The notes below the pieces were generated by a model, which was not told where the DNA came from, searched no databases, and saw only the letters and a list, made by a program, of their open reading frames with translations. The position numbers were made by a program, and so were the translations under genes. A stretch of DNA of 32,321 nucleotides, taken from positions 1-32,321 of the forward strand of contig DRDE01000289.1 in the NCBI GenBank assembly GCA_011040095.1, in the 5' to 3' direction. Below, one piece after another: positions 5,452 to 29,221 of this stretch (positions are counted from its first letter, which is position 1; each line of letters begins with the position of its first letter). The stretch is from Nitrospirota bacterium (GTDB taxonomy: Bacteria; Nitrospirota; Thermodesulfovibrionia; UBA6902).

Positions 5452-5787
5452 GTCCTGTTTATTATTAACGGCATTATTATTGTTACTGCCGTTGTAATTA
5501 TTTGCATCCGGCATTCTTTCCAGCCACTTCATGATAGTATCCTGCAGGCCAAGCCCTCTGTCAGCCAAAAGCCTGGAGACCTCCATATCAAAAAGGCTCA
5601 TATACGTATTATAACCATTCCCTTTTTTATCGGTTGACATACTGTTTGAGGTTTCTCTCATGATTTTCAGTAACTGGTAAGCAAAAAGAGACTCCATCTC
5701 CTTTGCAACTTTCTCAAACTCAGCATGCTTTTTGTCCGTTCCTTCGGCCGGCTCCTGACCGCTGATTGCTGAAAGCTGATTTATCAT
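5449..5787 (-). CDS. flgJ: rod-binding protein (FlgJ N-terminal type, no muramidase domain)
   Basis: 112 aa; FEKVAKEMESLFAYQLLKIMRETS...YMSLFDMEVSRLLADRGLGLQDTIMKWL. Confidence 0.88.
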   Translation of the reverse strand: MINQLSAISGQEPAEGTDKKHAEFEKVAKEMESLFAYQLLKIMRETSNSMSTDKKGNGYNTYMSLFDMEVSRLLADRGLGLQDTIMKWLERMPDANNYNGSNNNNAVNNKQD

Positions 5788-6890
5788 ATTATCTCCAGCT
5801 CCGCGCTCAGAGCGCCGGATGCCTTTAATGCCTGAAGAATGGATATTAAATCACGCGGTGTCACACCCAGCGCATTCAATGCCCTGACAACCTCGCCTAA
5901 AGTTATTCCGGATATCCTGACAAGAGATGCCTTCTGTTCTGTAACCGAGATATTTGTCCGTGGAACAACAGTTGTCTCTGCATTTTCAGGGGCAAAGGGA
6001 GGCGGCTGGGAAACCTGCGGCCGCTCCGTGATTTCAATAGCCAATGATCCGTGGGCAATAGCAACAGGGGAGATCGTTACATTCTTTCCGATAATAATTG
6101 TCCCTGTTCTTTCATTTATAACTACTTTTGCCGCCATATCAACCTGCACGTTCAGGACTTCGACTCTTGTTATCAATCCGACAAGATTACCCTTGTATGC
6201 ATCAGGCACTACAACCTTCACTGCCGACGGATCGATAGGGAACGCATACCTGCCTTCAAATGCCTCATTTATTTTTTTCGAGATTCTGTCTATGGTGGCA
6301 AAGTCGGCTTTATGAAGGAACAGTCTCAGTTCATTTCCATTCCCCAGGGTAAAAAGGGGCTCCTTTTCTATTGTTATGCCGTCAGGGATCTTGCCTGCAG
6401 TAGGATGATTTTTTTGTACTGAAGCGCCCTCCCCTCCTGCTGCAAAACCTCCTATGGAAACAGGTCCCTGGGCAAGGCCGTATACCTTGCCGTCAGGGCC
6501 TCTTAAGGGGGTAAGAAGCAGCGTGCCGCCCTGGATGCTTGTTGCATCGCCTATTGTCGAAACAAGCGCATCAATTTTCATCCCGGGTTTTGCAAACGGC
6601 GGAAGCGTTGCAGTAATTACAACCGCTGCTATACTTTTTGTTTTAATATCATCCGCATTTACCGTCACTCCCATTCTCTTCAACATGCTCGACATACTCT
6701 GTACTGCCGTCTTTCCTTTATCGCCCGTTCCGTCAAGTCCGGCTATCAGTCCGTATCCTATCAATTGATTGTCCCTTACCCCTTCAAAGCTCGCTATATC
6801 CTTGATACGCTCGGCATATGAATAAGTGAAAAGTGAAAAGTGAAAAGTGAAAAGCAATAAGGATGTTATAAATAATATGATTTTTTTCAT
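5784..6890 (-). CDS. flgI: flagellar P-ring protein FlgI (start likely MKKIILF at 6890 rather than 6947)
   Basis: ERIKDIASFEGVRDNQLIGYGLIAGLDGTGDKGKTAVQSMSSMLKRMGV. The internal ATG gives a normal signal peptide with GAGGG as a possible SD. Confidence 0.96.
   Translation of the reverse strand: MKKIILFITSLLLFTFHFSLFTYSYAERIKDIASFEGVRDNQLIGYGLIAGLDGTGDKGKTAVQSMSSMLKRMGVTVNADDIKTKSIAAVVITATLPPFAKPGMKIDALVSTIGDATSIQGGTLLLTPLRGPDGKVYGLAQGPVSIGGFAAGGEGASVQKNHPTAGKIPDGITIEKEPLFTLGNGNELRLFLHKADFATIDRISKKINEAFEGRYAFPIDPSAVKVVVPDAYKGNLVGLITRVEVLNVQVDMAAKVVINERTGTIIIGKNVTISPVAIAHGSLAIEITERPQVSQPPPFAPENAETTVVPRTNISVTEQKASLVRISGITLGEVVRALNALGVTPRDLISILQALKASGALSAELEII
6824..6854. repeat. perfect heptanucleotide tandem repeat AAGTGAA x4.4 in the flgI signal-peptide coding region
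   Basis: AAGTGAA AAGTGAA AAGTGAA AAGTGAA AAG read directly. Confidence 0.98.
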
Positions 6891-6924: not shown

Positions 6925-7746
6925 TCAGAACGGCCACACATAATCAAGCGCCCTGGCCATCCAGCCCGGGGTCTGCTTTTCCTGGATCACGCCGTCCCCG
7001 ACATAGTATACCTGCGCATCCGCAATCTTACTGCTCAATATCGTATTATCGGATGAAATATCGTCGGGTCTCGCCATGCCGGTAAGCACCAGTATCTGTT
7101 TCTCACTGTTTATTGTCAGTTCTTTTCTCGCCTCTAAAACAAGATTGCCGTTGGGCATAACTTCTACAACCTTTGCCGTTATGGTCGCAACAAGCGTCCC
7201 TTCCCTGTTTGTGTCGCCTTTTCCCTTAAACGCAGATTTCAAAGTGCTTTTTACGGCCGGATCAAAAACATTTGCGCCCTTATATAAATCCTTTACGCCA
7301 AAGGCATTCTGAAGATTAAAGTCATTATTCATACCTAAAAAATTGGCCAGCTCATAATCAATTGACGATTCCCTGCTGGTGTCCGTGTCTGCCTTGCCCG
7401 AGCCGGAGAAGCTTTCATCAATGTTTATTGTTACAAGATCATTAAGCCTTTGCGCCTTTCTGTCTTCAAATAAATTTGCGCTGTCACTCCAGAGGGAGTT
7501 AAGAGAAGAACGCTCCTCCGGATCTTCCGCCTGGTCCACGTACTTCGGCGGGGGCGGAGGCAGTTTTGCCGCAGGCGTAGCGCAACCGATTAAAAACAGA
7601 GCACAGAGCACGGAACACAGACCACAGACCGGGGAAAAAGAATATGCATTCTTTTGTCTCAGCTTCGCGCCCTGTCCTTTATCTGTATTCTGTATTCTGT
7701 GTTCTGTATTCTGCATTTCAAAGCTCCACCCTGACGGTTTTTTCAT
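6925..7746 (-). CDS. flgH: flagellar L-ring lipoprotein FlgH
   Basis: Lipobox LFLIGC; FlgH core (SLWSDSANLFEDRKAQRLNDLVTINIDES, GNLVLEARKELTINSEKQILVLTGMARPDDISSDNTI, ARALDYVWPF). Start could be 7746 or 7716. Confidence 0.95.
   Translation of the reverse strand: MKKPSGWSFEMQNTEHRIQNTDKGQGAKLRQKNAYSFSPVCGLCSVLCALFLIGCATPAAKLPPPPPKYVDQAEDPEERSSLNSLWSDSANLFEDRKAQRLNDLVTINIDESFSGSGKADTDTSRESSIDYELANFLGMNNDFNLQNAFGVKDLYKGANVFDPAVKSTLKSAFKGKGDTNREGTLVATITAKVVEVMPNGNLVLEARKELTINSEKQILVLTGMARPDDISSDNTILSSKIADAQVYYVGDGVIQEKQTPGWMARALDYVWPF
7596..7716. repeat. heptamer-armed inverted repeat inside the flgH 5' coding region
   Basis: Left arm is five 7-mers ACAGAGC ACAGAGC ACGGAAC ACAGACC ACAGACC (7596-7630). 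Right arm is TCTGTAT TCTGTAT TCTGTGT TCTGTAT TCTGCAT (7682-7716). The arms are inverted, with about 25/32 identity by hand alignment. Confidence 0.85.
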
Positions 7747-8413
7747 CTATCAGCACCCCGTTAACTTCTTTTTTAGATGACAGGTTAATTGCCCTCACAG
7801 CCTTGCCCACATATCCTTTCTCTTTGGTCTTACCCGCTGCCCTGATGCTCAGTCCGCTGTAGTTTATTAAAAGGACTACCCTCTTTCCCCGCGCCACTAC
7901 CCGGGACATCTCGATCATGTCCTCTACAACCGGGATGTTCGCGGTTATGGATCTCTTTAAAGATTTTCCTATAATTTTTGACGGATCTTTCACTGAACCG
8001 CCGGGCATTTTCCTGATATCCATCTTTGCAAGATATATATCTTCAGCCCGGATAACATGCCTTTTTCTATAGGGCCGCTTGCTCTTGACAACCATACCGA
8101 AGGCCCTGACATTCGCCTTTACTATAGTCCTCTTATTGTTCCCGGACATGAATGAAAAGACAGCCTTGCCGATCGGGCCTTTTTCTACAAGGATCCTCTG
8201 CGGCGGTTCACTATTGATCTTACCCATGACCTGCACATTGCTTACTTCTATCTCTTCCCATGGATAATTGTTCGTCAAATATGATCTCAACACATCTTCC
8301 GGGCTCCACGAAGCAGCATCAACGGAAGACAGCCAACAGGACAGAGACAACAGGACAGAGACAAAAACCAGTAAATTTATTTCCCTCTTCAGTACCCTTT
8401 TATCTTTCATCAT
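7718..8413 (-). CDS. flgA: flagella basal body P-ring formation protein FlgA
   Basis: 231 aa with SAF-like domain (VVKSKRPYRKRHVIRAEDIYLAKMDIRKMPGG...GKSLKRSITANIPVVEDMIE); located in the flgF-G-A-H-I order. Confidence 0.92.
   Translation of the reverse strand: MMKDKRVLKREINLLVFVSVLLSLSCWLSSVDAASWSPEDVLRSYLTNNYPWEEIEVSNVQVMGKINSEPPQRILVEKGPIGKAVFSFMSGNNKRTIVKANVRAFGMVVKSKRPYRKRHVIRAEDIYLAKMDIRKMPGGSVKDPSKIIGKSLKRSITANIPVVEDMIEMSRVVARGKRVVLLINYSGLSIRAAGKTKEKGYVGKAVRAINLSSKKEVNGVLIDEKTVRVEL
8334..8364. repeat. 14-bp (2x7) tandem repeat CAACAGGACAGAGA x2.2 in the flgA signal-peptide coding region
   Basis: CAACAGGACAGAGA CAACAGGACAGAGA CAA read directly; encodes VSVLLSLSCW. Confidence 0.95.
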
Positions 8414-16339: not shown

Positions 16340-16374
16340 TCCGTGCTCTGTGTTCTGCGTTCTTTGTTCTTTTA
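16340..16374. repeat. degenerate heptamer array TCCGTGC TCTGTGT TCTGCGT TCTTTGT TCTTTTA between flhB and fliR
   Basis: Five 7-bp-phased units read directly. Confidence 0.75.
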
Positions 16375-17452: not shown

Positions 17453-18219
17453 CAGAAACTCCTCATCATTGAGCCTACAATCAGGTTCCACCCGTCAACA
17501 AGCACAAATAAAAGCAGCTTGAAAGGAAGAGAGATCATTACGGGCGGGAGCATCATCATTCCCATACTCAACAGTATGCTTGCTACAACCATATCTACTA
17601 TCAAAAAAGGCAGGAACAGCAAAAAACCTATTTCAAACGCCGTCTTTAATTCACTTATTGCAAAAGCCGGCACGAGAATGCTCATTGACAAATCCATAGG
17701 CGATTGAGGAAGCTTCCTCTTTGAGAGCCCGGCAAACAATGCAATATCCTTTTGCCTCGTCTGTCTCAGCATAAATTCCTTCAGCGGCGGCACGGCCTCA
17801 TCAATTGCATCTCCAAAGCTCACTTCTTCTTCTATATAAGGAGTGATCGCTTTCTCATTAATTACATTTATCGTAGGAGACATAACAAAAAAAGTCAGGA
17901 ATAAGGAAAGCCCTATAATTACAGGGGTCGGCGGTATCTGCTGTCCCCCGAAAGCATGCCGCAAAAACGAGAGCACTACAACAATTCGGGTAAAAGAAGT
18001 AAACATGATAAGCACTGCGGGCAAAAAAGAAAGAAAGCTGATGATAAGGAATATCTCGATCAGGGGGCTGTTTATCTCCTTGAAATCAATTGCATAAGCA
18101 GGAGACGCCATAATAAAAATGAAAGTCAACAGGAAGGCAGCCGTCATAAGCGGTTTTTTAAAATTGGCGACACGCGGTTGAAAAACTGCAATCCGTGTTT
18201 TGAAATTTTCAATTTTCAA
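17452..18219 (-). CDS. fliP: flagellar export protein FliP (TTG start as listed; a start further in is possible)
   Basis: LIMFTSFTRIVVVLSFLRHAFGGQQIPPTPVIIGLSLFLTFFVM...; preceded by signal-like MTAAFLLTFIFIMASPAYA. Confidence 0.96.
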   Translation of the reverse strand: MKIENFKTRIAVFQPRVANFKKPLMTAAFLLTFIFIMASPAYAIDFKEINSPLIEIFLIISFLSFLPAVLIMFTSFTRIVVVLSFLRHAFGGQQIPPTPVIIGLSLFLTFFVMSPTINVINEKAITPYIEEEVSFGDAIDEAVPPLKEFMLRQTRQKDIALFAGLSKRKLPQSPMDLSMSILVPAFAISELKTAFEIGFLLFLPFLIVDMVVASILLSMGMMMLPPVMISLPFKLLLFVLVDGWNLIVGSMMRSF

Positions 18220-18223
18220 TTTC
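18204..18223. repeat. heptamer tandem repeat AATTTTC x2.9 at the fliP start / fliO stop junction
   Basis: AATTTTC AATTTTC AATTTC read directly. Confidence 0.75.
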
Positions 18224-29100: not shown

Positions 29101-29207
29101 ACGGTTCACGGTTTTTTACATATTTCCATATCTTCAGAGGAAGCAAACATTATTGCCTCCGGCCTTTATGTTTTCTTTAACCGTGAACTGATAACCGTGA
29201 ACCGTGA
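29101..29207. repeat. heptamer-armed inverted repeat between the convergent two-CW and flgE genes; possible bidirectional terminator
   Basis: ACGGTTC ACGGTTT (29101-29114) versus ACCGTGA ACTGATA ACCGTGA ACCGTGA (29180-29207). Confidence 0.8.
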
Positions 29208-29221
29208 ACCCTTACTTTGTA

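Follow-up and report, generated by a model that had tools for sequence, protein, structure and literature searches.

The window examined in this study, a 32,321-nucleotide stretch of DNA (positions 1 to 32,321 of contig DRDE01000289.1), belongs to a 2.76-Mb Nitrospirota assembly (GCA_011040095.1; here G000), whose nearest named record is Bacterium BMS3Abin06, with another named relative labelled Thermodesulfovibrionia. Its minus strand carries the tightly packed flagellar genes flgG-flgA-flgH-flgI, in that order. The P-ring chaperone gene flgA (7718-8413; PF13144, E = 1.1e-25) encodes a signal peptide ending before ASW, the L-ring lipoprotein gene flgH (6925-7746; PF02107, E = 2.4e-55) one that ends with LIGC, and the P-ring protein gene flgI (5784-6890; PF02119, E = 1.6e-133) the signal peptide MKKIILFITSLLLFTFHFSLFTYSYA before ERIKD, with an MKK start that is conserved in G001, a sister species of the same genus.

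All three signal peptides are repeat-derived, as an initial annotation of the sequence had proposed. In flgA, a perfect 14-bp tandem duplication on the minus strand (8334-8364; sense TCTCTGTCCTGTTG, 2.2 copies; 17 of 17 matches at lag 14) encodes the residues VSVLLSLSC, and in flgH the expected degenerate array (ACAGAGC-type on the plus strand, TCTGTGC-type in the sense GGTCTGTGGTCTGTGTTCCGTGCTCTGTGCTCTGT) lies at 7596-7630, with 24 of 28 matches at lag 7, and encodes the h-region VCGLCSVLCALF before the lipobox LIGC. The flgI array (6819-6854, minus strand; also detected by TRF) consists of four to five pyrimidine-rich CTTTTCA units in sense, matches at 25 of 29 positions at lag 7 and encodes the h-region LFTFHFSLFT. 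The claim that all three are built on a period of seven did not hold, since the flgA duplication matches at only 10 of 24 positions at lag 7; heptamer arrays are therefore found in two of the three signal peptides (FlgH and FlgI). A second flgH array, overlooked in that annotation, lies on the same strand at 7682-7717 (purine-rich sense units CAGAATA/CAGAACA; 26 of 29 at lag 7), where it abuts the flgA stop codon (7718-7720), is inverted relative to the first array and encodes the polar n-region MQNTEHRIQNTD. Together the two arms form an inverted element at the flgA/flgH junction (7596-7717, minus strand) that is predicted to fold as a single long mRNA hairpin (MFE -48.8 kcal/mol, z -5.0, with none of 200 shuffles as good).

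Across the window, segments scoring at least 13 numbered three at lag 7 and four at lag 14, with none at lags 5, 8, 10 or 11, while no such segment arose at lag 7 or 14 when the window was simulated 60 times with a first-order Markov model. The FlgI and FlgH arrays are thus tandem 7-bp units above chance (at lag 7 only, against a null of zero). TRF also detects a weaker array at the flhB/fliR junction (16343-16372; score 11) and an array at the fliP/fliO junction (18204-18222; AATTTTC units, score 12), which lies in the stretch coding for the FliP n-region, and an AACCGTG array with a lag of seven lies between two convergent genes (29193-29210). Because of the arrays at the flhB/fliR and fliP/fliO junctions, the further proposal that such repeats are confined to signal sequences was too strong for the window; elsewhere in the genome, arrays are found in gaps and within other genes. 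Three stretches of G000 (L022, 3282-3367; L012, 5627-6005; L066, 6394-6435) contain in-gene heptamer arrays encoding polar QNTEHRTQ or SELRTQ peptides, and all six gene-body arrays in the G000 sample are purine-rich in sense.

Occurrence and orientation of the arrays across the family

The 75 nt preceding the mature start of FlgA, FlgH, FlgI, TolB and LolA were scored at one threshold in 37 genomes of the same family. Period-7 arrays were present in 60 of the 127 signal peptide regions (FlgI 17/26, FlgH 9/25, FlgA 9/29, TolB 11/17, LolA 14/30), a set that was not chosen blind, FlgA, FlgH and FlgI having come from the finding itself and TolB and LolA having been picked after arrays were seen in G000. 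The same five genes yielded no period-7 arrays in 1036 mature tiles, and none were found in 30 RecA N-termini. Codon-shuffled signal peptides gave a mean of 0.095 arrays among 127 (maximum 1), and lags of 4, 5, 8, 10, 11, 13 and 16 gave zero or one array each. The arrays are also restricted to this lineage: FlgI proteins from outside the family (30 other Nitrospirota and 5 other records) had no h-region array in 35 cases (Fisher, 6e-9). BamD (0/30) and SurA (0/26), two families selected when no arrays had yet been seen in them, had none in 56 signal peptides together, and none were found in the FliL coding sequence (0/28) or in the gene neighbouring BamD (30 loci). These counts strongly support the central idea of the initial annotation, that heptamer arrays have been exapted as signal peptides more than once, but not as a general rule for exported proteins.

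Within the family, the period-7 site of FlgI is occupied by the units CTTTTCA, CTTGTCA, CTTCCTA, TGTCTAC, CTGTTCA or CTTGCCC, and in FlgH, FlgA, TolB and LolA the unit at the same site likewise differs by species. A strict signal peptide predictor missed the repeat-coded sequences and was replaced by a relaxed n/h/c rule of measured sensitivity (basic n-region, hydrophobic h-region, and a mature start preceded by AxA or a lipobox), which recovers 90% of the array-bearing signal peptides, 94% of the others and 0 of 30 RecA N-termini. We infer that the repeat-coded segments probably work as signal peptides.

In sense, every one of the 60 h-region arrays is pyrimidine-rich. Arrays lying 60-150 nt before the mature start, some of which may precede the true start codon, are purine-rich in 48 of 53 cases. 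The suggestion that such repeats supply h-regions stands only for arrays that are pyrimidine-rich in sense, and purine-rich arrays encode n-regions; strand and order had not been part of the initial annotation. Among neighbouring arrays within 200 nt of each other in samples of G000 and the relative G029, 23 pairs run from purine to pyrimidine and none from pyrimidine to purine, with 6 and 3 pairs of like with like, and the purine-to-pyrimidine order is identical on both strands. The arms are complementary in 15 of the 23 purine-pyrimidine pairs, mostly 11-35 nt apart, and pairs of signal peptide arms are nearer to complementarity than permuted pairs (p = 0.001). In two signal peptides of genome G028 (FlgH, L030; LolA, L200), the spacer separating the arms includes a C/G-rich sequence (PPRGGGLGGG; CCCCCCCATCCCCCCCTTAGCAAGGGGGGG), another, nested type of repeat.

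Genome samples and gene junctions

Approximately 0.48 Mb of unmasked G000 sequence and 0.6 Mb of G029 were examined for arrays irrespective of gene family. Arrays occurred in 4 of 73 predicted signal peptides in G000 and in 2-3 of 86 in G029, or about 4-5% genome-wide; one of the three G029 calls resembles a cytosolic enzyme, is probably a false start and was excluded from the pooled test. Compared to the mature tiles of the same genes (0/704), the signal peptides of G000 are enriched (p = 7e-5), so that the predicted enrichment over mature sequence holds in the genome sample, if weakly. They also exceed non-secreted N-termini in G000 (1/160, p = 0.03), while the pooled comparison of both genomes (6/159 signal peptides versus 5/373 other N-termini) is not significant (p = 0.09).

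Arrays are denser between genes than within gene bodies, both in G029 (0.57 versus 0.049 per kb) and in G000 (0.072 versus 0.019 per kb). The longest in either sample is an intergenic CTTGACT array of 114 nt in G029 (L147, 398-511). Another region of G029 (L118, 11590-13865) holds a series of genes encoding pilin-like N-termini (GFTL.E), several of them opening with one or two heptamer arrays in front of the pilin motif. In G000, the signal peptide arrays all fall at tight junctions (4 of 35 such junctions, compared to 0 of 33 loose ones), a difference that is not significant (p = 0.11). Some FlgI and FlgA genes with arrays have no tight neighbour detected. Across the family, the five array-prone genes start near the end of an upstream co-directional gene in 99 of 127 cases, compared to 12 of 54 for BamD and SurA, a junction bias that fits capture at operon junctions, with gene identity confounded with junction type.

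Turnover between relatives and the origin of the arrays

Parsimony on the family tree, scoring unit type and absence, requires at least 45 changes over the five genes, with four to seven unit types per gene. Between G000 and G001, the TolB signal peptide has been wholly replaced, from a CTTTTCA to a TCTGTGC type, within flanks that are about 89-93% identical, while LolA and FlgI have kept both their arrays and their lengths. Between G025 and G026, the FlgI and FlgA signal peptides are swapped although the mature sequences are 92-94% and the upstream sequences 92% identical; that of FlgH is unchanged. In each genome, the arms of the G001 TolB signal peptide have matches at about 30 dispersed sites. 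No complete arm-spacer-arm copy was found elsewhere for the two TolB signal peptides searched, in which only the arms recur, a result that does not support transfer of the unit as a whole. The sequence CTTTTCACTTTTCAC occurs in G000 solely in the FlgI (window 6819-6854) and TolB (L107, 15174-15209) signal peptides, both with a CTTTTCA array; this one case hints at a possible transfer from signal peptide to signal peptide. A search of a plasmid database with the FlgI signal peptide gave no match.

The absence of arrays from FlgI outside the family, the many units per site, the parsimony changes and the whole-peptide swaps between sister species, together with the counts above, give good support to the repeated capture of heptamer arrays as signal peptides. 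The complete explanation that we favor, and consider reasonably probable, is that dispersed heptamer arrays land at gene junctions and rebuild signal peptides, with selection retaining those that export. Heptanucleotide arrays of many unrelated sequences are dispersed in the genome, most densely between genes and, in the well-sampled G029, between co-directional ones. If the start of an exported gene touches or overlaps the end of its upstream neighbour, an array landing at the junction falls into signal peptide codons. Since a unit of seven is not a multiple of three, a stop-free array gives the same seven-residue repeat in all frames; its pyrimidine-rich strand encodes Leu/Phe/Val/Ser/Thr/Cys peptides as possible h-regions, and its purine-rich strand Lys/Arg/Gln/Glu/Ser peptides suited to n-regions. 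Because the purine-to-pyrimidine order holds on both strands, an element reads polar-then-hydrophobic in any frame and in either orientation, as signal peptides themselves are laid out. Hairpin pairing probably plays a part. Selection for insertions that still export would then have led to repeated rebuilding of the FlgA, FlgH, FlgI, TolB and LolA signal peptides, and the overwriting of signal peptides by heptamer repeats would account for near-identical genes of relatives carrying entirely different ones. More tentatively, the purine-to-pyrimidine inverted heptamer element may be a distinct kind of dispersed DNA, a source of signal peptides independent of frame and orientation through its strand-symmetric order, with the signal peptides of the family turning over by capture of whole units.

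It is also possible, if rather unlikely, that nothing moves and that 7-bp slippage duplications in pyrimidine-rich h-region codons, followed by point mutation, produced the species-specific units in place. An excess of heptamer simple sequence repeats is known from many bacteria, and slippage involving a 7-nt polymerase contact has been proposed, in work that we take from its citation in PMC4692102 and PMC4679880. The bare 14-bp duplication of FlgA in the window, and the length and unit retained by FlgI in the same-genus pair, are in line with such growth. However, the three swaps between sister species, all within flanks at least about 90% identical, changed either the upstream purine-rich array, spacer and h-region array jointly (TolB, FlgA) or the whole signal peptide (FlgI); the arms match some 30 dispersed arrays; and slippage alone does not predict the strict purine-to-pyrimidine order. 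We infer that the arrays probably arrive as units rather than by growth in place.

An unlikely alternative reading reverses the priority of RNA and protein: heptamer hairpins would be intercistronic elements acting in processing, stability or translation coupling, and signal peptide coding a tolerated side effect. In G029, array density is 1.05 per kb in co-directional gaps, compared to 0.35 in convergent and 0.51 in divergent ones, and four two-armed elements, including the FlgH signal peptide, have predicted folding z-scores of -4 to -7. An Rfam search of five sequences (112 kb) matched only a tRNA. However, many signal peptide arrays are single-armed, as in FlgI, where no hairpin is predicted (z +0.6), and G000 has no co-directional excess (0.12 versus 0.10 and 0.14 per kb).

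Phase variation is an improbable explanation. The gain or loss of one unit between the start codon and the mature protein would shift the frame and turn off the exported protein, a mechanism like that of Neisseria opa, where CTCTT pentamer coding repeats in the leader peptide cause copy-number phase variation (PMC3960869). The two systems share a non-triplet tandem unit inside signal or leader peptide codons, but opa has one unit in one gene family, whereas here many unrelated 7-bp units occur in unrelated export genes, are replaced between species and show little sign of copy-number switching. LolA of G028 (L200) lacks an in-frame start, its best ATG preceded by a Shine-Dalgarno sequence being out of frame, and LolA of G030 (L220) appears similar on inspection; these may be off-phase alleles or assembly errors, and each genome has a second LolA match. 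Both genomes are draft multi-contig assemblies, however, a systematic frame scan flagged 1 of 75 array genes versus 0 of 52 array-free ones, and array lengths in LolA and FlgI are constant between G000 and G001, with one genome per species. Biased amino-acid composition, chance or misassembly is a most improbable source, for although signal peptides are of low complexity and most of the genomes are drafts, composition and chance are ruled out by the lag and codon-shuffle controls (lag 7 only; 0.1 of 127), a 70-nt TolB array lies in the single-contig assembly G004, and the LolA and FlgI arrays are concordant in two same-genus genomes.

Known repeat systems and implications

Rickettsia palindromic elements are hairpin-forming repeats that are read in frame within genes, as sequence families inserted in protein bodies. 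The arrays described here resemble them as in-frame hairpin repeat DNA, but share no sequence, only a period of seven and the strand order, and their site is the signal peptide. Homologous copies with defined ends, as in that group or in MITEs, were not found: only arms recur for the two TolB signal peptides searched. Dyad-symmetric repeat DNA that codes for parts of membrane-targeted proteins is another likeness, although that system involves a conserved 25-residue motif in tandem domains and neither signal peptides nor period-7 DNA. Dispersed, mostly intergenic period-7 tandem arrays, often beside start codons, are known from the G-rich heptamers of Xanthomonas and Nostoc (PMC4692102), the TAACTGA heptamer of Beggiatoaceae (PMC4679880) and the bacterial heptanucleotide repeats of Mrazek (2007), as summarised in those two papers. 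Those reports deal mainly with one unit or related units per lineage, whereas here a single genome holds many different units, and they lie within coding sequence as signal peptides; the term "signal peptide" does not occur in either paper. In the open-access literature, which was the scope of the search, no account was found of heptamer arrays used recurrently as signal peptides.

These findings suggest that dispersed repeat DNA may supply working export signals. Signal peptides evolve fast and the origin of new ones is seldom visible, but in this lineage it can be read from the DNA. A non-triplet repeat unit can yield a usable peptide in every frame, and the lineage offers a case in which simple repeats would have given rise to coding sequence. 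Gene callers and signal peptide predictors should allow for the possibility that repeat-coded N-termini are real rather than junk.
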